Source of the DNA: Owenia fusiformis
Lineage: Eukaryota; Annelida; Polychaeta; Sabellida; Oweniidae
Length of the DNA stretch: 64,000 nucleotides
NCBI GenBank assembly: GCA_903813345.2
Contig: CAIIXF020000004.1
Location: 4,545,525-4,609,524 of the forward strand
Direction of reading: 5' to 3'
Shown piece by piece: positions 8,204 to 63,845 of the stretch. How positions within the stretch are numbered: the first letter of the stretch is position 1; the number at the start of each line of letters is the position of its first letter. Under the pieces are notes generated by a model. The model was not told the DNA's origin and did no database searches. It saw only the letters and a list, made by a program, of their open reading frames with translations. Position numbers and translations under genes: made by a program.

Positions 8204-9382
8204 ATGAAGTTGTTTGATATTACGACGGTAAGAAACGTTAACGACACCATTGTTTATAATTATTCGACAACATTTAAATTAGAGTCAGATTTGTCGATCA
8301 TCACATTCACAGTACTATCGACAATTCTTTGTTTAGCTGCGATTACGGCGAATTTCACTACAATGCTGATCGTGATCCTTCTACCAAAGCAAACACCATT
8401 CACGAAATTATTCATCAATTTAGCAACATGTGATATTCTGGGAACTATTGCTATTTATGTTGGCGATGTTGCATTTAGAGCTGGGACACATTGGAACCTT
8501 CCGATTGAAACGTGTAATATGCTCTTCAAAATTGGAGGGACATGCTTCAGTTTGTTTTTCTTCACGTCAGCCGTGACGCTGCTCGTGTTCGCCTTAATGC
8601 GGTACATCGGCATCACAAAACCACACTCATTCAAATCACTCTTTGAAAGTACTACAAAGGTCGTGCTGTATATTGTGCTCTGCTGGATAATATCACTCTG
8701 TTTCACATTACCCACTATCGTATGTGATAATGCGAAACAGAGGTGTAACAATTTATCGATTTACTCGCCGAGTGGCTGTATGTCAAAAAGTGCCTACAAA
8801 TTTTGCACGAACTATAAATACATCTGGGCGGGAGGTAAAGCTTCAATTCTGGTCATTGTTGTTTTTCTTTATCTGAGTCTCTCGCGAGATTTATTTGTGA
8901 GATCTGCATCGTTCAGTTCCAGTAAACGTAACAACAATACATCGACTCGGGACCCTGGGAAAGATAAACATGCTTTTATTACAATATTGATCCTACTTGT
9001 GATATTGGTTGCCACAGGTGTGCCATATATTACAGTGAAGGTGTTTAGGAGAGCCTATTATGACCAAACAACAATCAGTGTCTATAACAACTTCGTTGCA
9101 TATTTTCCATATATAAACTTTATCCTAGATCCTATTGTTTACAGCATCCGGTCATCGGATATACACACAACATATAAATGCTTATTTCGGCAACTATGCT
9201 CTTATCAAAAGTGCATGACGCAGCAGGAGCGTACCGACAATAAGTACACAGTGAGTCATAATAGCCACGACAAGCCAGTTGTCATAGCGATTAATGATTT
9301 GAAAACAAAACCAGAAAGTGTCAAGGATAGTCATGTTCGAATAGCCATGAGAGATACATCTACAAAACCAGAACTTGTTTAA
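8204..9382 (+). CDS. Class A (rhodopsin-like) GPCR, orphan, MECA-like
   Basis: Single-exon gene of 392 aa. The open frame extends 10 codons upstream, but the first ATG is at 8204. The N-terminus has sequons at N13 and N19. Seven membrane segments lie near residues 32-60 (N50, the TM1 Asn), 68-87 (D77 in TM2), 107-133, 154-175 (W161 in TM4), 207-228, 257-279 and 294-315. DRY is replaced by MRY (132-134), TM6 has GVPY without CWxP, and TM7 has DPIVY instead of NPxxY. The TM3 cysteine is not at its usual spacing from the MRY arginine, and TM5 lacks its proline. These features recall MECA-group receptors, but the ligand is unknown. The second extracellular loop is short (one sequon), unlike the two paralogues in this window. 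A possible AATAAA lies at 9511. Role: plasma-membrane receptor, probably G-protein coupled. Confidence 0.93.
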   Translation: MKLFDITTVRNVNDTIVYNYSTTFKLESDLSIITFTVLSTILCLAAITANFTTMLIVILLPKQTPFTKLFINLATCDILGTIAIYVGDVAFRAGTHWNLPIETCNMLFKIGGTCFSLFFFTSAVTLLVFALMRYIGITKPHSFKSLFESTTKVVLYIVLCWIISLCFTLPTIVCDNAKQRCNNLSIYSPSGCMSKSAYKFCTNYKYIWAGGKASILVIVVFLYLSLSRDLFVRSASFSSSKRNNNTSTRDPGKDKHAFITILILLVILVATGVPYITVKVFRRAYYDQTTISVYNNFVAYFPYINFILDPIVYSIRSSDIHTTYKCLFRQLCSYQKCMTQQERTDNKYTVSHNSHDKPVVIAINDLKTKPESVKDSHVRIAMRDTSTKPELV

Positions 9383-12666: not shown

Positions 12667-13920
12667 TTACACAGCGTAAGGCAATGCACACGATTCACCG
12701 CACGTTGCTTTGAGGGAATCATTCACAATCTTAATATGTGATGTTATTTTAACAGTTTGTTCTTCGGTGTACGGGAAGAAACTTTCGGATCTCCTATGAT
12801 GGTTGCCTTCGGCATTACAGATAGTGCATCGGAGAACATCAACCCAAATTTTGAATCCAAGAAAACTACAAATCCTAATTAATTCACGTTTTAAATTAGT
12901 TTGCAGGTTTTCGTAGTGTACTATCAATGTTGGCTTATCAGAACCAACTATCTTTAATGCGGAAAGGGTGGCGTTAAACCAACTTTCCAATCGTGTAACT
13001 CCATGTTTAGATTGGGTTCTCATAAACTGGCCAAAAGCAAATTGCATGTGTTTTTGGTTAATCCCTGTAATCTCGGAGGTATGTCCTCCAAAATGCCGTT
13101 TAAGTTCTGCAAGATAAGCTTCAAATGGATTACGTAATAATATTATGACTCGTTTATATTTCCCCTTGTCTAATTTATTCACACGATGTGTCTTCACTAC
13201 GACAACCTTCCCACTTTTCTCTCCCTCGCCAGGAAATCCATTTTGCAGAAGATCTGTGTCATTGTATACTGACCCTGTATATATACCTAAAATCAAAACG
13301 GAAGAGTACTGAAAAACAGTTTTTGTTTATTAACACAAAAGAGTAGACTTATATATTCCATATTCCGTTTCGACTATCTGCTAAGTATTGATTGAAGTAG
13401 ACGCACATTAGTGACAATTGAAATCTGTCATAAATGCGAGTCGTCGATACCATTGCATATCAGTTAAGAAAAAGCAGGAATTGGATGGTCTGAAATATTT
13501 GCATATTTGCCGAAAATACTGGTTTAACCAACCTGTTATTTGTTGTATAAGATGTCTCAACCACGTATTTCCAGAGCCAGGTATACTGTACAATGCAGTC
13601 ACAGGTAATAGCCTCTTGGAGAACTTCAGAGGCTGACATGTACTATTGGAATCCATTGGTTTGCATTTATAATCATACGCAACACTTTTATTGTTATCCG
13701 CAATATTTTTTGACATTTGAAACTTTCCGCTTTTAAGGTTATTCTCCTTATTTGAATTTCGTTCAATATCAATTATGACTTCTTTTGAATACATATCATT
13801 CTGGTGATTAATTACACTGCTAGATACATTTATTATAGTGTCACTATGTTGTTTTGTGTACAGTATCAGTATTATCACAATAACAGACAATATTATATAT
13901 GAGAGAAATGTATTCCTCAT
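12667..13920 (-). CDS. WSCD-like sulfotransferase, paralogue A (two exons)
   Basis: Exon 1 is 13920-13533 and exon 2 is 13286-12667, separated by a 246-bp phase-1 GT-AG intron; the protein is 335 aa. A short cytosolic tail and a hydrophobic anchor (residues 5-21) make it a type II membrane protein, expected in the Golgi. A variable stem (22-85) has several sequons. The catalytic domain starts with LYSIPGSGNTWLRHLI (110-125), the 5'-phosphosulfate-binding loop for PAPS. The splice joins into GIYTGSVYND and then VVVVKTHR. RNPFEAYLAELKRH (181-194) is the 3'-phosphate-binding motif. This order matches WSCD1/2-type sulfotransferases, but the WSC domains are absent. Substrate (glycan or sialic acid) is unknown. 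It is paralogous to the gene at 26328-27601. Confidence 0.9.
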
Positions 13921-14130
13921 CTCAAAAGTAGTTTATTGTAGAGTTTGCGATGTTTGATATATTTTATTGCATCTAAAGGGTCCTTTTTACATATTTGTTA
14001 GAAACAATTATGTTTCTTTCGATAAGATCATTGTTATATGTAAATAATGTGTTTTCAAACTACCGCAGGATAACTTGGACCATTAGGGAGGTTGAGCTTC
14101 ACGTTTTAAAGGCAACGTTTACCGAATGTG

Positions 14131-15541: not shown

Positions 15542-18500
15542 ATGCCTGGGTTAAATCGTAGCATTTTTATAGCATGTATTTTCTACATCAACAATGTGCA
15601 CTTTTGTGAGTCAGAAACGACATGCACGGTTGGACAAACGTCTTCTGATTTATTAGAAACTAATTTGACTGAGAGAATACTATCCTTTGTCGCAGATGGA
15701 AAACCTCAGGCTTTATTTGCCTCGATAAAAAACTTCCACGATACTTGGAAACTATGTGGTGTCAACACAAAATTACAAATCGTGAAAAAAGGTAAATCTT
15801 AGTTGCATTATCATTTTCCCCATACTATTTTATACTATTTCTCTATACTATTAGTAACAAATTAAAGAATATAGAGAGTACTTCAAATAAAGTAAAACAT
15901 AACCAGAAAGGAGGGCGAGTTGTTTGTAGAATGAATCGGGGGATTTTTTCATGAATTTCGCTTATGTTTTTCATCCAAAAAACATCAATACACTTTAAAA
16001 CATTTTGTTTACTTTAAGATTACACCATGTAATCCAAAAATATATTTCTCGTTTTCAAAGATAATCCATGGATTAACACCCATGTATTTTTATTTTTCAA
16101 ACTTTAGAGGGCTGGGAATCATTGATGCTCAACGCTTTTGAATATGATAAATGCTGTTTTAAGTAGGTTTTACGTATGCCAATAATTTCTCAAATTATGT
16201 AAGCTGAATGCATTCCATAATCCCTAGAATATTCTCTTAGAGGAATCCAATGGTATCCAATGGTAGTTCCAAGCAGATTTTTAGATGGCAGGTAAGTAAA
16301 TTCTTTAGTACTCGCCTTATTGGGTTGAGTTAGTTTATATTCAAAAATTATCTATGATTCTGTAAAGATGTCAGTGTGGATGCTATATAGATTGCACACG
16401 TATGGTTAGCTGTATAATCCTATATTATGTAACACGAGTACAGTTTTGGTTGACATGATTGTGACTGAGTGAGAGATTAAACTCTTTAAGGTAGTTCTGC
16501 ATGTTGATAATTTTTACTAATTTTGGTGATGAATAAATTATCTGATAATTATAAATTGGGCAATATTTTTGACATTTTAAGTGGATATAAAGAATTATGG
16601 TAACATACACATGGACCATGCATACACATACAATTACAAATGTGAAAATATTGTCCCTTTCATTGATTATCGGTATTTATTCCATAGTTAGCATGATATT
16701 CATAGGATAACATGTGAAAATAAAAACGGTATTTTTGTAATCAGTGGTAAAATATGATATTTTTGACAAATTTTCACTTTACCATAGCATACGGTTTTTT
16801 AGCCATGACATACGATGTCGTATGCGATGGTTTATGGATTTTTGCTACTTCAGACTCAAAACGAGGCTAAGTGTCAACATCACCGGATCGTTTGGAAAAT
16901 TCGAATTAAATCACCTAATTTCCGACGATTCTGATGTTGACTTTAACTATGGAATAAAAAGAACATCCTATGATTTACTCGTGATATGATTTTAATCCAC
17001 TCATGGATATTAATATCTGCACTCTCTCGCTACGCTCGCTCGTGCAGATATCATATCCATTCGTGGATAAAAATCATATCACTCATAAATCATAGGATAT
17101 CCTCTATTTATAATCATGAAAATTATTGAAAAATATCGAGACATGTCTACCTTAAAATCAGATTGGCTTACAAGTACCCTAAGCTATTTTCACATTTTTA
17201 TTGCAAGAAAATCTTTTTGCAAGGATTACAAAGGTTGAAATATTGTGGTGGCTCTATTTGGCTGGAGTTTAATATTCAGACCTAGCTATAGGTATTATTA
17301 CATTTATATGTACACTAGTATCTTGTTGACCTATATTCAGCACTGTATTGATGAATGGGCCACTTATTAGGGCCAATATTCAATCATAAAGTGTACAGGG
17401 GTAGAGATGCCAAACCAAGAAGTCTTTTTGTGTCTGTCAAAATCCATTTGCATCCTACACATCCCAACATATTATCCAAATATGTTATTAATTAATGAAA
17501 CATAACAGTATAATCTTTGGATTTAGAAAGTTGTATGGGATTTCATTAGTATAAAAGTTGCTTTTGAAGCATTTTTCTATAGCCATTTTGTAGGAAAAAA
17601 TGATGGAAAAAATGTATAATCTTTTAATTTGAAGTATGACCTGAATCGATTGCAAACTTTATATTTGCACATCTGATGTGATATACCATTTGTGTCATAC
17701 TGTGAAATTATTTAATTTGCAATCGATTCAGGTCATAGTGTATTTTAGGTATTTTTGTGAAAATCAATAGAAACCAATGGCCTCTATTGGAATTGATGAT
17801 ATCCACATGTTAAGTCAATGGAGCCCATTCAATGGCAAGTCAATACACCCTTGCTGAACTAAATGACCTCAACCTTTTCCACAGTATTATGTGACATTGT
17901 ATTCTTTATGTTACATCTAAAAATGATTCATTTTGTTCATGGGGATATCATAATGGAAAGTGCACTAGACCCTTATTGTAATTGTATGATATCGTATTTG
18001 TGATTTGAATATACACTGTGAGATTTGAGAAAAAGAATGTTTTGTTTTAGTTTCATTGCAATTTATAACCCTAATATCCTTCCCAGAATCCTCCCCTGTC
18101 TTCCAATTTTCTAATAACCTCAGAAGTTCCTACTTTTAAAAAAAAATACAATTTTCCATGATCATTTTTATGTCACCACCACAAGTGGTGACATATTGTT
18201 ATGGTCTCAGACTTTTTTGTGGACGGTGTTCAGTGGTTGGTGTTTATCATTTGGCAGTTGGTGTTTGGCAGTTGGTGTCTGTAACAAATGGCAGGTGTTG
18301 ACATTTTGCATGTGAATGCCTTGTCTTATAATGTAGCCAACTGCAATGGATGTAAAAGGGATACAGTTAACTAATACATTTCTTGGCATCAATTCAAATC
18401 ATATGCTAATTTTAAATGAAAATGCTTTTTTTCATGTTTTACCACTCATAAATGCCATAATATCTCGATGTCACATTCAGGAAAATATGGCTATCAACAA

Positions 18501-20045
18501 GTTTTGAATTCTTACAATCCTGGAAGTTGTACATGTAAGCGTACACATCTGTCAGTTCAGTTTATGTGTAAAAGTTAATCCCCTAAGCCTTAATACCTGA
18601 TGCATGAAATATTATGGATGAGTTACATAATATGTACTCGTGCTATTTAGGTAAATGTTGTGCTGTTTCACCAGATTTGACTGACATCTTTAAATAACAA
18701 CAATTTGATTTGATGATCAGACAGCAACAAAACATATTAAGTGGCCAAGACAAAAGAATGTTATTATGATAGGCATTCTAGGGATTAAGGAATGCATTCA
18801 GCTTACATAATTTGAGAAATTATTGGCATACGTAAAACCTACTTAAAACAGCATTTATCGTATTCAAAAGCGTTGAGCATCATTGATTCCCAGCCCTCTG
18901 AAGATTGAAAAATAAAAATACCTGGGTGTTAATCCATGGATTATCTTTGAAAATGAGAAATATATTTTTGGATTACATGGTGTAATCTTAAAGTAAACAA
19001 AATGTTTTAAAGTGTATTGATGTTTTTTGGATGAAAAACATAAGCGAAATTCATGAAAAATTCCCCCGATTCATTCTACAAACAACTCGCCCTCCTTTAG
19101 GCCGATCATATCTGTAGGGAGTGACAAATATTTAGCAACATGTACAGTTATCTAAAAAGCTCAAAAATATATTCATTACGATCTCAAATATAATATATCT
19201 TAAGATATTAACGATATGTAAACAACTGATCAAGTTTCAAAGCGGTAAAAAGTGGAGAAAATGTTTAAATTTTCCCGAATGATAATGTGGTTGCCAAATT
19301 TATAGCATTGTGAATGCATTATTGCAAGAATATAGAAAATTAAAGTGACAAGAAATTTATGCAAAGCAATATAACAAAAAAATACATCAAAAGCCAATAT
19401 TGTATTGTTATTTATCAAGGATGGTGTTATTTTAGGAAGAGAGTTCGTGGAGTTTATTAAAAAAAGATTTGGCATTGATGCAAGCACCTTAACGGATGAG
19501 CAATTGTATCAGGGTCAGCCCGTAGAGTTAAGCGGCTATCTATTCTTTGGCTTTGTTTTTGATACTAAGCTAAGAACAGTGACTGAAATAACGCAAGGTC
19601 TCGGTAAAGTGACGAATTATAATGGCCCACATAGCAACGAGATCGGCTTTGCAGTCACTGCGAGAAAGACTATCGCATCAAAAGGTCAGTATTATTCCGT
19701 AAACTCTTGTTTATTAAAAATAGTCCTGTAAAATCAAAACATGCATTTATATGTAAATAGAACCTAACTAAACAGTGTCTGATTCATTAAGGCCAATGGA
19801 CTGGTACTATTCCGAGAGGTGCGTTTATGTACACGCGTAGCATTCTCCTACCCAAATGTGATAATACAGAGACTGACGTCATAGAAGGCAGTACAACATA
19901 TCCGTTGTACATTGACTCGGATGGATTTGCGTCATTTGAGTATGTCGTATACTCTGAAAAATATGGACAAGGGGTAATGCATGGCGAAGAAATACATTCC
20001 CAAGCAGCATATGTGGTATCAATGACTATGAAATTTTCTGATTAA
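15542..20045 (+). CDS. Predicted secreted protein of unknown family (three exons)
   Basis: Exons are 15542-15791, 19436-19684 and 19792-20045; both introns are phase 1 with GT-AG ends, and the joined frame is 250 aa. I chose the ATG at 15542 because a signal peptide follows it (hydrophobic SIFIACIFYI, likely cut near residues 22-24). An in-frame ATG at 15494 would bury the signal behind 16 polar residues. The mature part has one sequon (NLTE), a Cys after the signal (TTCTV), WKLC in exon 1 and LPKC in exon 3, and a Gly/aromatic-rich second half (SGYLFFGFVFD, GQWTGTIPRGAF). I recognise no domain; a beta-rich extracellular or lectin/defence-type protein is only a guess. AATAAA lies at 20059-20064. 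Intron 1 (3.6 kb) is filled by a 3.2-kb inverted-repeat element, while intron 2 is 107 bp. Confidence 0.75.
16964..17098. repeat. Long palindrome with CTCGCTACGCTCGCTCG loop
   Basis: About 60 bases on each side pair (ATCCTATGATTTA... with ...TAAATCATAGGAT; GGATATTAATATCTGCAC with GTGCAGATATCATATCC). The loop is the C/G-rich TCTCTCGCTACGCTCGCTC in otherwise AT-rich DNA. It looks like a MITE nested in the 3.2-kb element. Confidence 0.85.
17637..17738. repeat. Inverted repeat with 22-bp perfect arms
   Basis: TATGACCTGAATCGATTGCAAA at the left is the exact reverse complement of TTTGCAATCGATTCAGGTCATA at the right, about 58 bases apart. Another small palindromic insertion within the intronic element. 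Confidence 0.85.
18169..18292 (+). repeat. Dispersed repeat (second copy at 37192)
   Basis: TTATGTCACCACCACAAGTGGTGACATATTGTTA includes a perfect hairpin (TGTCACCAC/GTGGTGACA). The following GGCAGTTGGTGTCTGTAACAAA also matches 37192-37302. The copies are in the same orientation and diverged. Confidence 0.75.
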
Positions 20046-25879: not shown

Positions 25880-27810
25880 AATGTGCGACAATTAAGGCAA
25901 ATCAATTGACATCCGAATCCCTTTCATTACTTAGGCAAGAATGGGATTGCTTACTCATACCATCTATTGGACAATGAAACATTTTTGTACAATTCATAAT
26001 ATATTCGCCATCTTTATTCTGATAGAAAACGTTCTTCCCCTGAGGCTAGGTAAGCCACTTTGTTCGAGCGAATCTCACTTAGCGCATTTTAAAACATGAC
26101 TTCTACGACTTTGTAGTTGGCGAAGAGTTGAAAGTCTCTGACGTAATCTATGGTAACACATTTGCCAAGTTAAATTGTAATGGGAAGACGTTAAATTAAA
26201 GCATAGAATAAACGTTTCCCCTTATAAATCTTGGTACTTTTGCTTCATTATCAAAGAAGTAAGAAAATATAGTCATTCAGTCCTAGTGATTAAGATTAAG
26301 ACAACTGATGGATTTTTTGTTAACAAGTCACACTTTTCCGACGACGTAAGGCAATGTGCACGATTCACCACATGTTGCTCTGAGTGTTTCATTCACGATC
26401 TTTATATGTGCTGTAATGTTCATCGTTTGTCCTTTGGTGTACGGGAAGAAACGTTCGGATTTCCTATGATGGTTCCCTTCGGCATTACAGATAGTGCATT
26501 GAAGATCATCAACCCAAATGTTTAACCCAAGAAAACTACAAATCCTAATCAATTCTTGTTTCAAATTAGTTTTCAGATTGTCGTAGTGAATTATAAGTGT
26601 TGGTATATCAGAACTAACTATGTTTAATGCGGAAAGTGTGGCGTTTAACCAACTGTCTATTCGTGTAACTCCGTTTTTGAGAGTGTTCCTCATGAAATTA
26701 TTAAAACCATATCGCATGCGTGTTTGATTTAACATTTCTTTTGTAATTCCAGATGTATGTCCTCCAAAATGCCGTTTGAATTCTGCAAGGTAAGCTTCAA
26801 ATGGATTACGTAATAAAATGATGGCTTGTTTATAGTCTCCTTTGTCTAATGTCTGCACACGGTGTGTCTTGACAACGACAACCTTACCATCTTTTATTCC
26901 TTCACCGGGAAATCCATTCTGAAGGAGATCCGTGTCATTGTATACTGACCCTGTGTAAATTCCTACAATAAAAACACAAGGAAGGGTCGATTATGAAATG
27001 ACCAATGGAAAAGCTAATTTATTGTCCAAACCATTAAAATATGCGATATTTTCGACGATCTGTTAAGTATTTACGCGTGCGTGCACTAGTGGCAATATGT
27101 GAACTGCCATCTTTGTGAGTCCTCGATGCCATTGAATATCAATTGAAAACGGAGATTTGATGTTCTTAATAGGACATTTGTATATTTTCCGAAAATAGTA
27201 GTTCACCAACCTGTTATTTGTTGTATAAGATGTCTCATCCACGTATTTCCAGAGCCAGGTAGACTGTACAATGCAGTCACAGGTAACAGCCTCTTGGAGA
27301 ACTTCAGAGGTTGACAGGTACTATTGGAATCCATTGGTTCGCATGTATAATCATATAAGACACGTCTATTCATATCTCCAACATCGTTTGATATATTAAT
27401 GTTCCCACTAATATGGTTACTCTCATCTTTTGAGTCTCCTTTGATATCAGTTCTGTCTTCTGGATAGATCACATCATTTTGGTGATTGAATACACTATTA
27501 GATACATTTATTATAGTGTTACTATGTGGTCGTAAGCAGAGTATCAGAAGTATGACTAAAATGGCAGACAGTATGATAACCTTGAATGATTTATTCCTCA
27601 TTTTAAAGTCGCTTATGAAGAGTATGTAATGTTTTAATGTATGCCATTGCATCTTAAGGCATCATTTCTACATAGCGTTGTTATAAACAATAATGTTCCC
27701 TCACTTAATGTGTAATAACTTATCTTTCAAACTACCGTTGGGCAATTTGGGCTATAAATCAAGTTAAGCTACACGTTTTTAAGGGAACTTTAACACGACC
27801 GTGTAGGATA
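25880..27810. repeat. Segmental duplication block B (sulfotransferase locus)
   Basis: Paralogous to 11640-14130 in the same orientation. It lacks the 401-bp LTR-like insertion seen in block A. Intron position, phase and near-equal size (248 versus 246 bp) are kept. Confidence 0.85.
26328..27601 (-). CDS. WSCD-like sulfotransferase, paralogue B (two exons)
   Basis: Exon 1 is 27601-27211 and exon 2 is 26962-26328, with a 248-bp phase-1 GT-AG intron; the protein is 341 aa. I chose the ATG at 27601 (MRNKSF) because it aligns with the start of paralogue A; an upstream in-frame ATG at 27652 would precede the anchor with 17 extra residues. It has a type II anchor (about residues 8-24), a variable stem and then LYSLPGSGNTWMRHLI (PAPS 5'-phosphosulfate loop). 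The splice joins into GIYTGSVYND, followed by RNPFEAYLAEFKRH (3'-phosphate motif). Stem and C-terminus differ most from paralogue A, including a C-terminal extension (VVGKV), while the catalytic core is nearly the same. Expected Golgi sulfotransferase of unknown acceptor. Confidence 0.9.
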
Positions 27811-30613: not shown

Positions 30614-31074
30614 AAAGGTGTGGTATCGATATGGAGAATCTTTTGAATCACGTTTCTCTTGAACCAGTCATAAAAAATCTAAAAATTTAACACATCGTCA
30701 ATTTAATGGTCATCTTTTGAATGGTAGCAATATAATTTGAAAAAATATACTTTCATCTATATTTTTTCTAGAAAACACATCAAACACTTGTTTTGTTCTT
30801 GTTGTATATGCTATTTTGTTCCAATAAGGTTCGGAAAGACATTTTATTTCATTCTCAAGCATTGGTAGAAAGGATTAAAAACAATTACACAAAAGAACAA
30901 CAAATGTTATCAAAAAGAGTTATATAAAATATTTCTAAATAAGTTTTGCATTAAATTGTTGTCAATCAGTCAACATTACATGAAATAACGTGTTTTTTAC
31001 AGAATGTTTTCAATGATTGGTGTAAGAGAAAAAACATTGTTGAATTCAGTTCTCCATATCGATACCACTCCTTT
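30614..31074. mobile_element. Foldback element family 2, copy 1 (uninterrupted)
   Basis: 461 bp with ends AAAGGTGTGGTATCGATATGG and CCATATCGATACCACTCCTTT. The interior contains TTGTTGTATATGCTATTTTGTTCCAATAAGG, which is the intact form of the site broken in the copy at 47323-48890. No coding capacity. Confidence 0.88.
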
Positions 31075-35509: not shown

Positions 35510-36694
35510 TTAAAGAGAATTCACTTGTCTAAGTTCAGTTGCGATAGGGACATTTCCTTTGTGAGTCCCGGAAACGATCTCATAAGCGTTCTGCACGGTT
35601 CTCTGGTTCCGTTGTTTACATGATATTTGGTCAATGACGGACTTATACTTGGCATATATATCTGGCGATCGTATGCTGTATACAAGCGGATCTAGGATAA
35701 AATTAATATATGGAAAGTATGTTATAAAATGATGATAAACTGCAATAGTTGTTTGGCTAAAAACAGCTCGTCTGTAAACTTTGACTATGATGTAGGGTAC
35801 CCCTAACAACACCATCGTCACTATAAGTATCACTATGGTGATAAAGGCGTGTTGGTCATTTCTCCTATTTCTCATTGCACAGTCTTCGTCTCGAAATGAC
35901 CCGCACCTTTTAAATAAATCGCGAGACACGTAGATATACAAAAGCACTATGATAATAAGGATGAGACCTTTTCCAACGGCCCAACTATACTTCCATTGGT
36001 AGCAGACTACATATGCTGCCTCGGTTGGACATGACTGCTGCTGCTCATCAGTAATATTGTTAATTGTGACGTCATTGATTTGTAAGTTTGTAAGGTTGTC
36101 CTCGATTAGAAAGTTTGTGAGGTTGTCCTCGATTTGAAAGGTTGTATTAAAGAAGTTACTTGAGTTTTGACTCTGTTTGTGGATTCCTCCACATTTTTCT
36201 TTTGCGGTATATTCGCAGATTATGCTTGGAAATGCCACACAAGTAGAAATTATCCAACATAGACAGATATAGATAAGAATTTTCTTTGAACTTGCAAAGT
36301 ATAACTTAAACAAATGCGGTTTTTTGATTGCGATAAAACGCATGATTGCAAACACGAGCAATGTTACGGTTGAAGTTAGAAAGAGCAGGTTAAAGCATAT
36401 ACCAGCAACTATAAATATTGAATTAAGTCTTTCCAAGCTCAACAAATTCCAATGTATCCCCGCTCTGTAGAATCCATCTCCTATATAGATTGCAAATGTT
36501 CCGAGAATATCACAAATCGCAAGATTTACAAATAATTTCGAGAACGGCGTTTGCTTTGGAAGATATATAACAATTATGGTCGTCAGGGAGTTTGTAAGTA
36601 CTGATATTGCACACAATAATGTTGAAAGTACGGTAAATATGATCACGGTAGCGTCCGATTCAAACTGCACTTCTTCTACTGTGGAACCATCCAT
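35510..36694 (-). CDS. Class A GPCR, orphan, MECA-like, long glycosylated ECL2
   Basis: Single-exon gene of 394 aa; an in-frame TAA lies five codons upstream of the ATG, so the start is firm. TM segments lie near residues 16-45, 53-72 (D62), 91-120 (MRF 118-120 replacing DRY), 138-158 (W147), 238-257, 282-305 (GVPY) and 318-341 (DPLVY 335-339). It lacks the TM3 disulfide cysteine and the TM5 proline. The second extracellular loop (about 160-236) is unusually long and has five N-glycosylation sequons, two of them created by a tandem 30-bp duplication (IEDNLTN(F/L)). Residues 65-125 are nearly identical to the 61.5-kb paralogue, while the rest is clearly more diverged. The C-tail has clusters of Ser/Thr. 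Ligand unknown; plasma membrane. Confidence 0.93.
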   Translation of the reverse strand: MDGSTVEEVQFESDATVIIFTVLSTLLCAISVLTNSLTTIIVIYLPKQTPFSKLFVNLAICDILGTFAIYIGDGFYRAGIHWNLLSLERLNSIFIVAGICFNLLFLTSTVTLLVFAIMRFIAIKKPHLFKLYFASSKKILIYICLCWIISTCVAFPSIICEYTAKEKCGGIHKQSQNSSNFFNTTFQIEDNLTNFLIEDNLTNLQINDVTINNITDEQQQSCPTEAAYVVCYQWKYSWAVGKGLILIIIVLLYIYVSRDLFKRCGSFRDEDCAMRNRRNDQHAFITIVILIVTMVLLGVPYIIVKVYRRAVFSQTTIAVYHHFITYFPYINFILDPLVYSIRSPDIYAKYKSVIDQISCKQRNQRTVQNAYEIVSGTHKGNVPIATELRQVNSL

Positions 36695-37190
36695 TGCGCC
36701 ATTACCTTAAAGAAATACACAATATTCCGAAGCCATTATTTCACAGTCATGTCGAAATCGAAGCTAATTTCCTTCGTGATTGAAGACCAAGACTAGTGTT
36801 TGCTATCGAACGGCAGTGCGTTGGTTTATCACCGATAAACATGTTCTAAATAACACGAATCATCCTTGTGATATTGTACTTTTAATTCTTTGATAATCTC
36901 CTTCTTTGACTTACTGCACTATTGCCTTTTAGGATCACAAAACACTGCTGTATCACTTTATACATCCTTATACAAACTAATTAGTTATCGTAGTTCAGCT
37001 TTACCATGTGCCAATCTCCTTCCTTGACTCGATTCCATGCATACCAAGTGCCAGTCATTTGCAATAAGACTAAAATGACACTACGCAATAACACAGGCAT
37101 CGAAATCACTGGCAAGAAAATATCAGGAGATCGTAACGGCAGTTAGCTTCGTATTCAAAATGGTGGAGAAAAGAAAAGTGTCGGTTTTTT
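36695..37190. other. 5' flank of the second GPCR gene
   Basis: No clear core promoter or repeat. Contains a possible 5' UTR ending at 36695. Confidence 0.5.
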
Positions 37191-37302: not shown

Positions 37303-37429
37303 TCTTACAACTTCCAATGACTTAACAAATACTGTTTAGTCTGACTTCAATTTTTTTCAAATTCATCTACAAGTTTTCAGAAGTTCACAAGTCTGACTTT
37401 ATATTTAAGATTTGACCTTTGACATTTGA

Positions 37430-37647
37430 TTAAGTCTTTCCAAGCTCAACAAATTCCAATGTATCCCCGCTCGGTAGAATCCATCTCCTATATAGATTGC
37501 AAATGTTCCAAGAGTATCACAGATCGCAAGATTTACAAATAATTTCGAGAACGGCGTTTGCTTTGGAAGATAAATAACAATTATGGTCGTCAGGGAGTTT
37601 GTAAGTACTGATATTGCACACAATAATGTTGAAAATACAGTAAATGG
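37430..37647 (-). pseudogene. GPCR fragment (TM1 to start of TM3)
   Basis: The translated piece corresponds to TM1, TM2 and the first extracellular loop of the GPCR at 35510-36694, with motifs LTNSLTTIIVIYLPKQTPFS, LAICDTLGTFAIYIGDG and GIHWNLLSLERLN. Homology stops abruptly at both ends, and TM3-TM7 and the N-terminus are missing, so it cannot encode a receptor. Diagnostic bases are mosaic: CTCGGTAG and CCAAGAGTATCACAGATC match the 61.5-kb gene, whereas GGTCGTCAGGGAGTTTG and AACGGCGTTTGCTTTGG match the 35.5-kb gene. It lies about 740 bp upstream of the intact gene. Confidence 0.88.
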
Positions 37648-38933
37648 TCTATGATCAAAACAATTTCAAAAGTTATAAAACAATGTGTACTTTCTGGGGA
37701 ATGGTTCATATCAGTCTAGAGTTATTTTTAAAATTTATTTAATTCATCGAATAGACAGCTAATTTCAGGATTTGACCTTTATTCATTCCATAAACATCAC
37801 TATCCCCATATTAGTTTGTGTTCTTTTATCTTTTTGTACCATTGTTCTCGTTTAAGTATATTTCTTCATCTCTTTTGGCCCACAAAGAATATTCAGTCAT
37901 TGAAATCCGTACTGGTTGGAACATTGATACCCCAGTCGGTACATTGAGTTCTCTTTAACAAAACGAAAAATTTGCAACGGGGGCTTCTTTTAAATGAATT
38001 TCCAAAAACGTCTCGTCTAATCTCCTCCTCGTGCTCTGCATAAGGCGCACTTAGAACAAATGCATCTTTCTGCCCTGAAACACTACAATTCCATGAACCT
38101 CATCAGTTAATACCGCACCATCCTGAAAACCAATCACCGTTATCGCATCATGCATTTCACGTACCCCTCCTTTACGCGGTCGAATATATCGTTTTACCAT
38201 AGCCTACACAAGCAGTTATGGAACAATAAAGTATATGACTCAGTTACTCTTACACATAATATTAATGCTGTGCAAATATGAAAGCCAAATGTCAACTACA
38301 AAATGGTTGAATTCGATGAAAAATAAAAATGTAGAAACCAGCACTACCCGTCCGCCATCTTGAATGCGAGCGTAACTGCTGTTACCGCCTCCTGATACAG
38401 TGAAAATAATCGAAAAATAAAACAAATTCATCGTAAGAACTGTCATCTTTCGAGTAATTACACGCTATCCACCTCCTCTTATTTATGATAGCAGTAAATC
38501 GTTACTTCCATTGGAAAAGTCATTGTGTCGACACTCACATTTTAATGTCTTGTATATTGTACAAATACTCATAAGGACCTACTAAATGTCGTACTTTGCT
38601 GATTGATTTGATAACTTGGTTCTTCCGAACGTAATCATAAATCGTATAATAATTTGTAATATAAACCTCTTATAATAAATCACATACGCTAATTGAATTA
38701 CACCGATCTGCAAAACGTAAATGGATCGTCGAATCGGTTTATGTAGCGTGACTAAGATATGCATGTTCTGTATCATAATACGTCTATCTTTGATAATCTC
38801 AATCGAATAAGATATAATTCACGTCCATCTTTCTAATGAAAATGTTCAATGTCTGTGACTAGATAGCACATTTTTATCAGGGAATTTTCAAAGGCATACG
38901 TCAATACCATGTGCACAAAAGGAGGGAGGCTAA
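37648..38933. other. Gene-free stretch
   Basis: Short frames only; no domain, RNA or repeat recognised. Confidence 0.5.
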
Positions 38934-39741
38934 CCCTACTATCACACCAAACTAGTTCTCACTACGTTCTCGAAAACGGGCTTCAACTGTGTACGAACGG
39001 ACTGGACGTACTAAGAACCGTTTGGGATCTATTTACAAACTTCATCGAACGTACTCGAACGGGTAGGTCCTCTAGAACTTAGACAATGCTCAAAATGTTT
39101 TCGTGGTCGTCACGTTCTACAATTAGAACGAGTGGCAACGTACTACCGACGAGCTGGACGTACTACGAACGGAACCGTCGTACTTCAATCCTACTAGGGA
39201 CGTTTTAACAACGAGTGGAACTGTCTGAGGACGTGTTGAGAACGAGGTAGAACTCATTGCAAACGGGTTTAAACTGATAAAGAACGTATTTAACACTGCT
39301 TATGAACGAGTTAGCAAAAATATAGCTATCACACCAAACAAGTTGCCACTGCGTTCTTCAAAACTGGTTCTAAACTGTGTGCGAACGGAATGAACGTAGC
39401 TGCAACTTTCTAAGGTCTATTTAAGAACTTTATGAACGTTCTCAGACGGGAATGTGATTTTAGAAGTTTGAATCGATTCAAAATTCGATTGCGACCATAC
39501 CGTTCTGTTATCAGGTCATGTTGACCTTCTAGACTAAGGGACGCGTTCTACGGCGTTGCACACCGACGTGGTGCGACCTGAACGAACTGCGAACGAGATG
39601 GACGTATTGAAGACTGTTTAAGAACGAAGAAGCTAATTATTTCAGACATATTTCCCGACCACAGCCAGTTTGAGCCCGTTTTACGACGTTTTCGTAGGAC
39701 TGGCAAGAACGGGTAAGAACGAGTTTGGTGTGATAGGGGGG
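38934..39741. mobile_element. AGAACG-rich inverted-end element, copy 1
   Basis: Ends CCCTACTATCACACCAAACTAGTTCT and AGAACGAGTTTGGTGTGATAGGGGGG. The body is packed with AGAACG, GAACGG and CGTTCT words and is made of two related halves: CTATCACACCAAAC restarts at 39326. TA precedes and follows the copy at 52507, suggesting TA target use. It is noncoding. The 52507-53320 copy lies in inverted orientation with few differences. Confidence 0.88.
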
Positions 39742-39744
39742 TAA

Positions 39745-42329: not shown

Positions 42330-43669
42330 GATGTATGTATGTATGTATAATTTATTTGCATCTTTTATAAAAAGACAGTTACATTGCATACAGTATATAA
42401 TTAGGAATAAAGGTATAAAAATACATATATTATATAGTACCATTTACAAGAATGATATTATCATACCACACTACATGTGATTAGCCTAGTAAATGCCATT
42501 GTATGAGATCAATGAATTGCGCTTAGTATACATTTGAGTTACTATTCCTGAGATAAAAACTAGCGTATCAATGTCATCTATTGACACTTGAATCCCAAGA
42601 GACATTCTCATTTTCTGGTCATTTGACATTAAATGCATTTCATTGAAAAATATTGCCAAGGGTCTTCTAACATCAGCAAGTGCTTCACAATGCAACATGA
42701 AGTGCTCAATTGTGTCATAACAAGAATTGCAACAAGGACACATCGATTCGGAGAATCTGAAACAACCGGTTTGCAAATGTAACATGAGCTGGCATGATTT
42801 TTTCATCATTGGAAATTCTTGACAAATTTTCCACCAAATAGTAGGGCATAAAGTAGGTGTGGTCGTTAAAGATTCACAATACCATTTCAAAGAACTATAT
42901 AATGAGCACATGATTCTTAAACTCTGTAAATCAGAGTTACCGACGATCATTTTTACCTTTTTGCTCCAACTGAATTTCGACCCATATTGCGCTGTACCTA
43001 ACATTTTTACAACACTACCTCTCATATTGTACCTTACAACTGTGTTCCACATACTAACTAGAGGTGACATAGAGTGCCCAACACCATTCATTATTTGAAC
43101 GAGTCTGTGGATTGCAACGCATTTATAAATATTACTCATAGGTAAGCTCAAGATTCCCCAGAAGAACATTAACCTATATATATCTATTTTCCTGGATATC
43201 TTACTCAAACCTAATGGAGTTGTAGCTATTGGGTTGGCAGACCCCTTCGGTAGGTTTTGAACTCGTCTACCAATCTCTCTGTGTACTATTTCAAGACGTT
43301 CTACTTCCTGTGGGGTGTACTGTATAACGGCGCAACCATACAGCATTGTGTTAAGGGAATACGTAGTATATAGTCTACTGGCAGTGAGGGGACTAAGACC
43401 CCCTGTCAGAGAACCGAGGCCTAACAGTGAAAAGAATTTCCGTTTCCCCCTGCTTATGACATCTGTAATATAGTCGGTACGTTGGCCGAGTGGGATTCCA
43501 ACATGAATCGCGCCAGTTTTCAATGTGATTGTATCATGGCCAAGCTTAACTGGTTCGTTTATTGGAAGCTTATTTCCGAAAGCTAACATCACACATTTCC
43601 CTGGGTGGAATTCTATTCTCCACATCTGACTATATTGCCATACGGCATCCAGAAGATAGTCATTTGGGC
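42330..43669 (-). mobile_element. 5'-truncated LINE with (TACA)n tail
   Basis: The coding part is on the minus strand. The 3' UTR is followed by AAATAAATTA (42348-42357) and a microsatellite tail of TACA repeats (42330-42348) rather than poly(A). The frame starts abruptly near 43664, after two in-frame TGA codons, consistent with 5' truncation on insertion. It sits within the 4.8-kb inverted-repeat unit. It differs from the LINE at 1-2011 in tail type and sequence. Confidence 0.8.
42486..43664 (-). pseudogene. LINE reverse transcriptase C-terminal part (truncated)
   Basis: An open frame of about 390 codons starts downstream of the RT active site. MWRIEFHPGKCVMLAFG is the segment that follows YADD in LINE reverse transcriptases, and GAIHVGIPLG occupies the position of the usual YLG motif. 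A helical thumb/linker region follows. The C-terminus has a Cys/His knuckle (CPCCNSCYDTIEHFMLHC) about 80 residues from the end. No internal stop. The endonuclease and RT palm are missing, so it is dead on arrival rather than functional. Confidence 0.85.
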
Positions 43670-43739
43670 ATAGTCATCAAGTCATTTGGGCAATAAAGGA
43701 GTCTCATTGTAATAGTATTACAGTTAGTCACCTTCCAAT

Positions 43740-45550: not shown

Positions 45551-45721
45551 CCCACTATGATGCTTTCTGAAAAAAACGTCATGCACGTCATACATGTGTT
45601 AGCTCCAAATATCTTACGAAACGAGCATGTTTAAAATATGTGATCATAGAAAAAGAGATTTATAACTATCAATGACATAGTACACGATGATGTGTAGTCT
45701 AAATAACCGACTAAGTAACAC

Positions 45722-46997
45722 CACGGTGTTATAGCATGACGGTTACGACAAGGAGATTTGCAAAATTTTGCGGTAACGATAACAAAAAATGGTGGATGGG
45801 AAAGACAGCATGTCCTCTTTCTCGCCTGTAGGCAAGATTCACAGATACGATTTCCTTTTCAACTAGTTCCATTCGGTGACGTATATATGGATGGTTATAA
45901 AGACTGGGTCAAATCTGCCAGGTGGTTTACAAGATGGGGAATATAAGCTGTAAACTTACCGACTGAGATGTCCAAGTTCATATTTTTTAGTCCTTTCTCG
46001 TGATTTCTCAGTATATGTGCCTCAGAGCCACTCAAACTATTAACAGTAAGTAAACTGTGTATAAACAAGCCATAAAATGACAAATCCAGAACAGGAACGT
46101 GGTCATATTGTAAATAACAAGGTTTCAAACGCAATGTCGTTAGACGACAACGTATGAATTCTATGGACAGTAACGTATTGTATTAGTTGTACATTAGATA
46201 TTATTTAGTTGACGGTTACGTGTATGTACATCTTTCAAGTTAAGGTTGCTAGTTTTGATAGCCTCTTTCCATGTAATTGTTATAATGGGTAAGAAATGGA
46301 ATGTTGTGAATTGCTTATATTTGTTTTCAGGACTCGCAAGAGACGCTCTTGTTTGAGCCTCTATAGGGCAAGAAAAAAATTGTGTCTTGCTTTATTTATG
46401 AAACCAATTTTAGTCAAAAAGATAGCAATGAAGAGGCAAAAGAAGAATTAGCATCAAGTACTGATGAATATGACAAAATTAATAACAATGAATCTGGGAT
46501 ACATATTTGAATGAGGTTCGCGTAACCGTCAATCAATTTTTGGCGTAACCGCAAATTAAAAATACAATATTATGGCTAAAGTACAACATATTAGGTGGTT
46601 TCCAATGCTCAATTGGCTTTTTATGATCGTATGTAGCTTACATCTATATACCCCGAGGTCGTTAGGCAATGTAGACCATGCCCTTACGACAAAAATAAAC
46701 AAATTACTAAATTTTGTGTAGTTTTGAATTTCAAACTCAACAGTTTTTTGCTTATTTCATGTTATCCCCGGGCATCAATTTGCAAAGAATACGTTCAAAA
46801 TATATATCACAAAATGCATCACCGAATGCGATGCCTACAAAAATCATTCATCCTTTCATTGATACACAGTAGAAAAAAAATAATGCACCAACCTTAGTTT
46901 TCTGTTCCATCGCGGCCATTTTATTGAATAAATCAGTGATCGTAGTCGTCTATTCTCGTTTTCAGAGATGTCGTAACCGTCATGCTATAACACCGTG
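45722..46997. mobile_element. DNA transposon with CACGGTG 28-bp ends and 5-bp target duplication
   Basis: 45722-45749 and 46970-46997 are perfect 28-bp inverted repeats, starting CACGGTGTTATAGCATGACG and then GTTACGAC. The pentamer AACAC occurs on both sides (45717-45721 and 46998-47002). Among DNA transposons, a 5-bp duplication and a heptamer like CACxxTG suggest Transib/RAG-like elements. GTAACCG/CGGTTAC words recur inside (45739, about 45761, 46207, 46517, 46544, 46972) like subterminal binding sites. No transposase-sized frame is present, so it is nonautonomous. Superfamily is an inference from the ends only. Confidence 0.85.
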
Positions 46998-47322
46998 AAC
47001 ACTGTAACCGAATCATTGTTTTATGTGTGAAAACTACAGTACATGCATTCGAATAGGGCGATGTATACGTACAGGTTTCCCGTTCGATTTTATATACATT
47101 GCTTAAAGCGAAATAACAAAATTGACGTACTTCTGCCGACAAAAAATTAAGATTTTTTATTTTCATAATTTACACCAACAAAGAGGTTGATTTGTATCCC
47201 GTTACTTAACCGAAGTGTTACTTGCAAGCTCCAGTTACTAAAAAGCTAGTCAGTGACAGTTATATGTACCCAGCAGCTCCAATAATTGGGTGAGAAATTG
47301 AGCATCCAAGACGTTATCTGGT

Positions 47323-48890
47323 AAAGGATAGGTATCGATATGGAAAACTGAATTCAACAATGTTTTTCTCTTAAACCAATCATTGAAAACATTCTGTAAA
47401 AAACACTTTAATATTTATGTAATGTTGACTGATTGACAACAATTTAATGCGAAAATTGTTTAGAAATACCTTATATACCCGTTTTTGTTAACATTTTTTG
47501 TTTTTTTATTGCAATTGTTTTTGCTCTTTTCTACCAATTCTTGAGAGTGAAATAAAATGTCTTTCCGAACCTTGTTGGAAGAAAATAGCGTATACAACAA
47601 GGAATTTTGGGTTGATTTAAAAAAGTATTCAAAAATTAAAACAAAATCCCCCAAAATAGATAAAAATCAAGATAAACCTTTTATTTCATTAACAAGATAT
47701 TTTTTTAAATCAACCAAACTTTCCTTTGTACAATTACAATATTGAGAGTCCTAAACATGTTGTGTTTACACTCCCCTCCATAAGTTTGGCAACCTTTTTT
47801 CCCCATTGAACTACGTGTTAAAGCCTCTTTACGTTTGACTTTTTATTTATTTAACCGGCGATGAAATAACTTATAATATTGATGAAAACGTAACTTGACT
47901 TTATCTCAAATACCTCCAAATTTTCTCAATTTTTTCCTTTATTACAATAGGTCGAAAATTGATGATAAATTTGATGAAATTTTGAAAATCGTCATTCCCA
48001 TGTAATCCAATGGGAAATGGAGGGTTCGGGGCAAATCAGAAATCAGGATATCTTTTCAGTAAAAGATTCAGCAAAAAGATATTTTTATATAGAAAATTGA
48101 ATTGTCTAGCTTTTTTTAACACTAAGTGTTTAGTTTATTGGATGAATATTAAAGTTACAGCGCTTCAAAGTCAATTTTTCGCCTCCTGTGTTATTTCAAT
48201 GGGAGAGGTTTTTTGAAAAACAATTTCGACTTTAAAGACCTATAACGTTGTTGAACCTGCAGAAACATATCAATTTTTTGTTAACTAAAGTTAGCAAATT
48301 CTATTGCCTGCCTAACTCGTATTTTTTGCAAGGACTCGGATGGATGGATATTCTATCATATGATTTGCGGCAAACCTACCATTTCCCATTGGTTAACATG
48401 GGAATGTCGATTTTCAAATATTCATCAAATTCATCATCAATTTTCGACCTATTGTAATTGAGGAAAAAAATTGAGAAAATTTGGAGGTATTGGAAATAAA
48501 GTCAAGATACGTTTCCATCAATATTATAAGTTATTTCATCGCCGGTTAAACAAATTTAAAATTCAAACGTAAAGAGACTTTAACACGTAGTTCAATTGGG
48601 AAAAAAGGTTGCCAAACTTATGGAGGGGACTGTGTGTCGTTTTGTTCCAATGAGGTTTGGAAAGATGTTTCATTTCACTCTGGAAACATGATACCAAAAA
48701 CAAAACAAGTGTTTGATGTGTTTTCTAAAACAATATAGATGAAAGTATATATATATATATTTCAAATTATATTGTTACCATTCAAAAGATGACCATTGAA
48801 TTGAGGTGTTAAATTTTTAGATTTTTTTAATGACTGGTTTATAAGAGAAACGTTTGTTCAAAAAGTTCTCCATATCGATACCACTCCTTT
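47323..48890. mobile_element. Foldback family 2, copy 2, interrupted by a family-1 foldback
   Basis: Ends AAAGGATAGGTATCGATATGG and CCATATCGATACCACTCCTTT match the uninterrupted element at 30614-31074, which here appears in reverse orientation. The middle is occupied by 47769-48634, a member of the other family. Part of the centre is duplicated as an inverse around the insertion (TTGTTGGAAGAAAATAGCG on the left, TTTTGTTCCAATGAGG on the right). Confidence 0.85.
47769..48634. mobile_element. Foldback element family 1, copy 2 (uninterrupted)
   Basis: An 866-bp near-palindrome starting CACTCCCCTCCATAAGTTTG and ending CAAACTTATGGAGGGGACTGTG. Arms of about 400 bp each include CGGCGATGAAATAACTTATAATATTGATG and its inverse. 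It supplies the intact form of the arm that is broken in copy 1 at 20321-21818. Confidence 0.9.
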
Positions 48891-52504: not shown

Positions 52505-52506
52505 TA

Positions 52507-53320
52507 CCCCCCTATCACACCAAACTAGTTCTTACCCGTTCTTGCCAGTCCTACGAAAACGTCGTAAAACGGGCTCAATCTGGCTGTGGTCGGGAAATAT
52601 GTCAGAAATAATTAGCTTCTTCGTTCTTAAACAGTCCAGTCTTCAATACGTCCATCTCGTTGGCAGTTCGTTCAGGTCGCACCACGTCGGTGTGCAACGT
52701 AGTAGAACGCGTCCCTTAGTCAAGAAGCTCAACATGACCTGATTACAGAACGCTATGGTCGCCATCGAATTTTGAATCGATTCAAAATTCTTAAATCACA
52801 TTCCCGTCTGAGAACGTTCATAAAGTTCGTAAATAGACCTTAGAAAGTTGCAGCTACGTTCATTCCGTTCGCACACAGTTTAAAACCAGTTTTGAAGAAC
52901 GCGGTGGCAACTTGTTTGGTGTGATAGCTATATTTTTGCTAACTCGTTCATAAGTAGTGTTAAATACGTTCTTAATCAGTTTAAACCCGTTTGCAATTAG
53001 TTCTACCTCGTTCTCAACACGTCCTCAGACTGTTCAACTCGTTGTTAAAACGTCCCTAGTAGGATTGAAGTACGACGGTTCCGTTCGTAGTATGTCCAGC
53101 TCGTCGTTAGTACGTTGTCACTCGTTCTAATTGTAGAACGTGACGACCACGAGAACATTTTGAGCATTTGTCTAAGATCTAGAGGACCTACCCGTTCGAG
53201 TACGTTCGATGAAGTTTGTAAATAGATCCCAAACGGTTCTTAGTAGGTCCAGTCCGTTCGTGCACAGTTGAAGCCCGTTTTCGAGAACGTAGTGAGAACT
53301 AGTTTGGTGTGATAGTAGGG
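52507..53320. mobile_element. AGAACG-rich inverted-end element, copy 2
   Basis: Inverted copy of 38934-39741, ends CCCCCCTATCACACCAAACT and AGTTTGGTGTGATAGTAGGG, bordered by TA on both sides (52505-52506 and 53321-53322). Confidence 0.88.
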
Positions 53321-53586
53321 TACACTATGGACTTGTCTTTACAAAATAATTGCATGAAAAAACGTTGGAACTATATTGTCAAACAGACAAGTGGTTATCA
53401 CAATTTCTTTTTCAAATTTGTTTTCAAGATTATTTTTCAAAATTAATTTTAAAAATATTTTTAAATTTTCTTTCAAAATGTTTTTGAAATAGTATCCATC
53501 GGATACGCTTATATATCACGTCATATGGATCGGATACGATTTTAGTGGCTCATACCAAAATAATCTTGTTTCGTTATCCCCATATA

Positions 53587-61525: not shown

Positions 61526-62809
61526 TTAAACGACATCTTCTTTTGTCGGACCATGATTGTTTGGAATTGTTTGAGTAACAGTTTCTCCATTGTTCATACT
61601 AATGACGCCATAACCATTCCCCCTGGGCTCCTGTCCCCTGATGTGACATATAATACGTTCAATGATGGATTTATACTTATCGTATATATCTGGAGATCTT
61701 ATGCTATACACAAGCGGATCTAGGATAAAGTTGATATACGGAAAGTAGATAATACAATGTTGGTATACGTCAATTGTAGTTTGATCAAAAACAGCTCGTC
61801 TGTAAACCCTGACGACAATGTAAGGTACTCCAAGCAAAACAAGGGAGACCGTTAGTATAATGATCGTAATAAACGCTCGTAGGTCGTGTGCCCTTTTTCG
61901 CACCGAATCGTCATTTTCTCGAAATGACCCAGACCTCTTTAATAAGTCTTTTGAGACATGAACGTACAATAGAACTACTATTATGAGAATAAGCGCTTTT
62001 CCACCAGCCCAAGTATATTTCCAATGGTAGCAAACTGAATAGGCCAACTCTGTTAGACATGGTTGAGGATTGTGTCTTCCAGTGTCTGATGTATTAAAAC
62101 TACTACCAGATAGCACTGGAGTACCTCGGGTGGCGTCATATAGGCTTATATTCATGGAATTTACCGATTCTATGGTTACATTACTGTTGTCTAGTAATCT
62201 TCTGTCGTTGTACTGGTTAAGGTTGCTGTCAGAAAAAGAAACATTTTGATTGTCTTTGAAAAAGGTTCCACATTTCTTTTTCGGGGAATACTCACATATG
62301 ATGCTCGGAAGGGCAACAAATGTGGAAATAATCCAGCACAAACATATGTAGATAAGTATCCTCTTCGAGCTTACGAAATACGACTTAAACAGATGTGGCT
62401 TTTTGATTGCGATAAAGCGCATGATTGCAAACACGAGCAATGTTACGGTCGAAGTTAGAAAGAGCAGGTTAAAGCATATACCAGCAACTATAAATATTGA
62501 ATTAAGTCTTTCCAAGCTCAACAAATTCCAGTGTATCCCCGCTCGGTAGAATCCATCTCCTATATAGATTGCAACTGTTCCAAGAGTATCACAGATCGCA
62601 AGATTTATGAATAGTTTCGAGAATGGCGTCTGTTTTGGAAGATATATAACAATTATCATAGTAGTGATATTCAAAAACGCTGAGATTGCGCATAGAAACG
62701 TTGAGAGTATTGTAAATATAACAACAGTTGTGTCGGACTCCAATTTCACTTCCATGACAGTCGTGTTATCCATAATTATGATATCTTCTCCAACCATTAA
62801 GAGATACAT
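61526..62809 (-). CDS. Class A GPCR, orphan, MECA-like, third paralogue
   Basis: Single-exon gene, 427 aa from the first ATG (62809, with an in-frame TAG just upstream). An in-frame ATG at 62773 (MDNTTV, 415 aa) matches the start of the 35.5-kb paralogue and may be the real one. TM segments lie near residues 28-56, 66-84 (D74), 103-132 (MRF 130-132 for DRY), 149-170 (W159), 268-287, 312-334 (GVPY) and 347-370 (DPLVY 364-368). It lacks the TM3 cysteine and TM5 proline. ECL2 is very long (about 172-265) with four sequons, and its sequence is unrelated to the ECL2 of the other paralogues except for flanking Cys residues. Residues across TM2-TM3 are nearly identical to the 35.5-kb gene. Ligand unknown. 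Confidence 0.93.
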   Translation of the reverse strand: MYLLMVGEDIIIMDNTTVMEVKLESDTTVVIFTILSTFLCAISAFLNITTMIIVIYLPKQTPFSKLFINLAICDTLGTVAIYIGDGFYRAGIHWNLLSLERLNSIFIVAGICFNLLFLTSTVTLLVFAIMRFIAIKKPHLFKSYFVSSKRILIYICLCWIISTFVALPSIICEYSPKKKCGTFFKDNQNVSFSDSNLNQYNDRRLLDNSNVTIESVNSMNISLYDATRGTPVLSGSSFNTSDTGRHNPQPCLTELAYSVCYHWKYTWAGGKALILIIVVLLYVHVSKDLLKRSGSFRENDDSVRKRAHDLRAFITIIILTVSLVLLGVPYIVVRVYRRAVFDQTTIDVYQHCIIYFPYINFILDPLVYSIRSPDIYDKYKSIIERIICHIRGQEPRGNGYGVISMNNGETVTQTIPNNHGPTKEDVV

Positions 62810-63845
62810 GTATTTCTAAATCTGAATCAATAAAGCACTTGATTCTATAATGGTATCCTTCCTCGGGCGAATCTGCATTAAGTGCTTGTGCGAAAAATCC
62901 ACATGCAAAGAGCATTATCGTACATCTATAATTTTAATCGATAGAGAAATATGTTGCGCAAGGAGGAGGTCTTTCATATCAGTTTTATAGCTCTTTAAGA
63001 GTGTTAAATCTTCGTTTGATGTATTTTCATCGCCTTGCGGTCGTTACTGTGCTTTACAACACATTTAGTCATAATTTATAGTTCGTTATCTTAGGCTATA
63101 AGACCAAAGTGGTACACCTTTTCACCAATTACTATGAATCAATGCGCTTTAATCGACACCGTAAGTTAAGTGTCGTTTTATGGTTTGTTCAATACGCTCA
63201 TTGGTTTAATTGTCTTTGTACATGAATGCAGCAAACGTTTTTAACTTCAGCAAAGTTGCTTCTGTAGTCATGAAGCCATTTTCGACCTGGAAAGAAATTG
63301 AAAAAGCTTTATTACATTTAATGTTAATACACTCTTTAAAGGATTAAAGCACACGGCACAATGGATTGTACACACCAACGTTGTTTTGATAGAAAATTAC
63401 ACACAGAATCCAAATACCATCAAATAGAAAAATGTCAGTCTTTAGTGGTTAATAATGCAGATCTCCTAAAATCTCATTAAATACGAGACTTTGACGAGAT
63501 TTCAAAGTTATATGGAAAAGCCTCTATTCATTGAGCCATGTGCTTTGTTTTCACAGATGGCAAAATAGTGTACATTATCACTAACAAGAATATAATTCAA
63601 CCAGGATCGTATTACTCACTACAAGTGTATCAATTAACGAACATAATAACCATGTTTATCTTCCTTTATGGGAGAAACACTTCTGACTTTGAAATATTAC
63701 AATTTTCTTCATCCCCATTTCAGAAAGTTTACAAATGCCTTTATCCCTATTTCACAACGTCGATGATAAATTACACCATTTGTTTATTTCTTTAGATAAA
63801 CTTCATTCCCCCAATGTACATATTCCCACTACTGTTTTCTTTCTA
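62810..63845. other. 5' flank of the third GPCR gene
   Basis: No clear promoter motif and no second gene. An 85-codon frame at 63538-63795 has no domain. Confidence 0.45.

Follow-up and report, generated by a model that had tools for sequence, protein, structure and literature searches.

A CACGGTG-ended non-autonomous DNA transposon in Owenia fusiformis and its possible Transib/RAG affinity

Genes and repeats of the window

The window, meaning the whole 64-kb stretch of Owenia fusiformis DNA that was analyzed (contig CAIIXF020000004.1, positions 4,545,525 to 4,609,524), contains several gene families and several repeats. Among its open reading frames (ORFs) of at least 90 aa, Pfam recognizes rhodopsin-type 7TM receptors, sulfotransferases, and a zf-RVT fragment, a set indicative of an animal host. 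Three receptor ORFs (8132-9379, 35513-36706, and 61529-62815) form a local family, and there is a partial duplicate of a receptor ORF at 37424-37645. Two related gene copies on the minus strand (12670-13932 and 26331-27661) are 76% identical over about 1.5 kb, and the ORFs downstream from them match Sulfotransfer_1. A 395-aa ORF at 42489-43673 has no match in the PDB, and scans of the whole window for Rfam families and tRNAs returned nothing. The repeats are of various kinds. The 3192 bp at 15907-19098 are bounded by 324-bp inverted repeats that start with AAAGGAGGG and are 97.5% identical, so that this segment resembles a larger transposon with long terminal inverted repeats (TIRs). A repeat of about 0.8 kb is present in two copies of opposite orientation (38933-39743 and 52505-53321) that are 96% identical. 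A probable inverted-repeat element whose ends start with AAAGGA occupies 47323-48890, with related pieces at 30614-31074. Roughly 320 bp to the left of this AAAGGA-ended element lies the short transposon considered here (Table 1).

Table 1. Window coordinates of the transposon, its ends, its boxes, and the duplicated target
Feature	Position	Strand	Remarks
Whole non-autonomous element	45722-46997	.	1276 bp; no coding detected
Left target-site duplication AACAC	45717-45721	.	
Left TIR	45722-45750	+	29 bp; CACGGTG (heptamer-like) at 45722-45728, CGGTTACG box at 45740-45747
Variant box CGGTAAC	45771-45777	+	element position 50
Internal box TTGACGGTTACG	46209-46220	+	inverted partner of 46521-46532
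Internal box TTGACGGTTACG	46521-46532	-	inverted partner of 46209-46220
Internal box CGGTTACG	46544-46551	-	
Right TIR	46969-46997	-	29 bp, same as left; CGGTTACG box at 46972-46979
Right target-site duplication AACAC	46998-47002	.	

Ends, duplication, and coding capacity of the element

The two arms of the element are 100% complementary over 29 nt. Both ends read CACGGTGTTATAGCATGACGGTTACGACA, and they then diverge abruptly, with the first mismatch at position 30. The initial annotation had described perfect 28-bp inverted repeats beginning with CACGGTG. The perfection and the starting point are right, but the length is one base too few, since the mismatch comes only at position 30. That annotation had also placed AACAC on both sides, and both flanks do read AACAC, directly abutting the element. 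Among the duplication lengths of 2-10 bp that were tried, 5 bp is the longest that fits, and at 1-4 bp the left and right flanks differ, leaving 5 bp as the sole fitting length. A search of the window for exact 10-bp arms bearing a 2-10 bp duplication gave 86 candidates, three of which have a 5-bp duplication, and the arms of the other two are just 12-13 bp long. When up to three mismatches are allowed, the terminal 21-mer occurs at two sites in the window, which are the two ends of the element (0.00 expected). The window was dinucleotide-shuffled 20 times as a control: perfect inverted repeats within 6 kb then had a maximum length of 14-17 bp, and those accompanied by a 5-bp duplication reached 14 bp at most. 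The real window also has a 106-bp perfect inverted repeat, which is without a 5-bp duplication. The ends pair when the DNA of the whole element is folded, a result obtained without a shuffle control at that length and set aside as evidence. There is good support for regarding the element as a cut-and-paste DNA transposon of the non-autonomous kind. The insertion seems to be young, as suggested by the absence of any change in the 29 aligned end positions and in the 5 positions of the duplication.

The longest stop-free stretch in the element is 95 aa, and 23.6% of 1000 shuffles have one at least as long. Among the 35 ORFs of at least 25 aa that lie in or overlap the element, the ten compared with Pfam gave nothing above the family cut-off (best E 0.042), and the three compared with the PDB had no match (best E 0.38). 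To the extent of these comparisons, the initial report of no visible transposase is upheld. One possible coding remnant, an ORF at 46367-46510 that sits behind a possible splice acceptor and appears protein-like by eye, was rejected for want of a Pfam or PDB match. In the window at large, a Pfam transposase domain is absent from all 31 ORFs of at least 90 aa, with E limits of 0.01 for ten of them, 0.1 for twenty, and 5 for one; these ORFs are stop-to-stop stretches, so a transposase in shorter pieces or one leaving the window could escape. The window holds no further copy of the element, as blastn against the masked window stayed at chance level (best E 0.068). The exact end patterns had no match in viral and prokaryote contig collections, nor did the whole element in phages by blastn. 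These negative results are weak because the viral, prokaryotic, and phage collections contain little animal DNA.

Internal boxes and target site

The layout of each end appears bipartite, with CACGGTG at positions 1-7 and CGGTTACG at positions 19-26. The second word recurs: it has six sites in the 64-kb window (0.38 expected), and five of these are within the element, two of them terminal and three internal. When the interior was dinucleotide-shuffled 1000 times, three copies were never reached. The orientation changes between the halves, with plus-strand copies on the left (element positions 19 and 492) and minus-strand copies on the right (801, 824, and 1252). A 12-bp version of the box, TTGACGGTTACG, makes an internal inverted pair. 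The recurrent CGGTTAC/GTAACCG words pointed out in the initial annotation are real, as the element contains five of the seven CGGTTAC sites in the window; a further one is found at 47004, just beyond the right end. Transposase binding is inferred to be the likeliest role for the repeated CGGTTACG boxes.

Repeated internal boxes are a hAT habit, and hAT ends usually start with CAG or TAG (consensus YARNG). The presence of one box both inside the element and near its ends would suit a non-autonomous member of the hAT5 group, whose hAT transposase would bind the CGGTTACG boxes as subterminal repeats. The element starts with CACGG, however, and the C in third position departs from the purine of YARNG, a consensus for hATs in general and not one drawn from the ends of hAT5 itself. 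Ends in print include CAGRGGTAGGC for Mar and TAGGGTG for hATm, and our literature search did not find hAT5 end sequences. As for the duplication, 5 bp is what hAT5 makes, and this lineage includes animal hATs (PMC12730594). Dependence of a hAT transposase on subterminal repeats is described for yeast Kat1 (PMC4763223). In a mollusc survey hATs are abundant, being among the richest groups, and Transib provides one of 14,275 DDE elements (PMC10294476); the surveyed phylum may not be that of the host. On balance, we consider a hAT5 origin unlikely.

Subterminal repeats are also carried by CACTA elements, and Chapaev has CAC..GTG ends like those seen here, with a 4-bp duplication as against 5 bp in the element. 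The internal boxes in both orientations resemble the CACTA repeats, which would fit a different CMC lineage (CACTA/EnSpm or Chapaev) having an atypical 5-bp duplication. We hold this to be very unlikely: 5'-CAC..GTG ends are typical of CACTA, but its duplications are 2-3 bp long (PMC6004678, PMC12730594), and the element fits 5 bp only.

The box might instead mark an undescribed superfamily, or a lineage with ends outside the consulted sources. CGGTTACG is unlike the two inner boxes with which it was compared, GCCATCTTG of ProtoRAG (PMC8289069) and CCTCAAYAYG of AanRAGL (PMC9435367), and no match was found for the exact end in the viral and prokaryote collections mentioned above or for the whole element in phages. 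The viral and prokaryotic nature of these collections means that such an absence says little, and the ends and the duplication already fit a known kind of transposon. We assign this reading a low probability.

The target site is GT[AACAC]TG. This differs from CCANTGG, the target motif of the Drosophila Transibs hopper and transib2 (PMC3276498). The mismatch weighs little because a single insertion is involved and the motif, known here from Drosophila only, is not taken as defining the superfamily. Transib and RAG duplications are reported to be GC-biased (PMC8289069), and that of Hztransib is GCTCG (PMC1852546), unlike AACAC, which has no such bias.

The flanks also contain a short word. TAACCGA, whose reverse TCGGTTA includes the CGGTTA of the element, is present on the same strand at 45704-45710 and at 47005-47011. 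It stands six bases outside the left duplication and two bases outside the right one, so that in the empty site the starts of the two copies would be separated by 20 bp. Finding CGGTTA within 20 bp of both flanks has a roughly estimated probability of 2e-5, based on its density outside the element with both sites counted; the word was noticed post hoc and at one insertion. The transposase may choose targets next to its own word, or the arrangement may be meaningless. Three more GTTAC words are clustered at 47201, 47217, and 47234. Insertion into an older relative was considered and rejected, as the outer inverted repeats of the flanks are at chance level (up to 17 bases in a short-word search).

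Family assignment and proposed mechanism

The family that best fits the element is Transib/RAG-like, because CAC..GTG ends are combined with a 5-bp duplication. In the CMCT clade (CACTA, Mirage, Chapaev, Transib, and others), ends are mostly CA..TG and duplications 2-5 bp (PMC12730594). Within it, 5 bp is typical of Transib (PMC4411706) and was recorded in 532 of 533 hopper insertions and in all seven of transib2 (PMC3276498). RAG-like transposons make 5-bp duplications as well, and the CAC start is invariant among their ends, those of Transib, and recombination signal sequences, or RSSs (PMC7204232). At the 5' end of ProtoRAG, substitutions in CAC abolished recombination, whereas changes to bases 4-6 did not affect it significantly (PMC8289069). 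A RAG assay in cells gave a score of 0.925 to CACGGTG and of 0.829 to CACAGTG when TT came next, and CACGGTG scored lower than CACAGTG with AT, GT, or CT spacers (PMC9723617, Table 1). The end of the element, CACGGTG followed by TT, is exactly the 0.925 sequence. Such an end can thus act as an RSS heptamer given a nonamer, without this implying descent.

Several features set the element apart from the described members of the clade. An A-rich nonamer was looked for by eye and is absent both after a 23-bp spacer (positions 31-39: GGAGATTTG at the left end, CTCTGAAAA at the right end) and after a 12-bp spacer (positions 20-28: GGTTACGAC). What is shared with Transib is the 5-bp duplication, a heptamer-like 7-mer starting with CAC, and the occurrence of symmetric ends; what differs is the lack of a transposase, of the CCANTGG target, and of the nonamer, and the second box CGGTTACG. 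With RAG-like elements (RAGL) and ProtoRAG, the CAC start, the 5-bp duplication, and a bipartite end made of a heptamer and an inner box are held in common. Non-autonomous RAGL copies exist, including some without intact genes, and the protostome RAGL consensus end is CACTWMCAAACKTYKBB, with AAA at positions 8-10 (PMC7204232). The element instead has TTA there and fits 7 of the 17 consensus positions by eye. The convergent RAG1L and RAG2L genes that are a feature of protostome RAGL are absent from the element, in which no coding was detected. ProtoRAG ends are asymmetric, 27/31 (PMC8289069), unlike the symmetric ends seen here. Symmetric ends occur in many Transibs, among them Hztransib (PMC8289069, PMC9435367); those of Anopheles gambiae Transibs are imperfect (PMC3442997), in contrast to the perfect ends of the element. 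A symmetric-ended Transib is more likely than a RAG1L-RAG2L element. Our literature search returned no paper combining Transib with CACGGTG. The ends of Hztransib may start with CACGGTG as well, a point that is not used as evidence.

The suggestion in the initial annotation of a non-autonomous Transib/RAG relative stands as regards non-autonomy, the CAC start, and the 5-bp duplication, while the CCANTGG target and the protostome RAG-like consensus do not agree with it. With this family evidence for and against, we think it somewhat probable, from the single copy at hand, that the element is mobilized in trans by a Transib/RAG1-clade DDE transposase; hAT5, unlikely as judged above, is the chief competing reading.

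A mechanism can be proposed for such a Transib/RAG-clade transposase. It would be supplied in trans by an autonomous relative at another place in the genome, and would bind the CGGTTACG box at positions 19-26 of each end. After pairing the two ends, it would cut just outside CACGGTG. The flanks would then be closed into hairpins and the transposon ends left blunt, as we assume by analogy with Hztransib, whose cleavage yields a hairpin on the flank and a blunt signal end (PMC6941560). The ends would join the target DNA with a 5-bp stagger, placing AACAC on either side. A bolder and quite improbable version is that of an undescribed RAG1-related lineage, whose ends would combine CACGGTG-TT, a heptamer functional with vertebrate RAG, and the new second box CGGTTACG, and whose transposase might prefer targets beside its own binding word.

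Membership in hAT5 or some other family would make the element an ordinary non-autonomous transposon. Transibs are relatives of the enzyme that assembles human antibodies. If the element is Transib/RAG-like, its two ends, fresh and intact, would help in tracing the autonomous partner, and it would supply a natural heptamer of a kind accepted by vertebrate RAG when TT follows. It would also document further the diversification of RSS-like ends outside the vertebrates.
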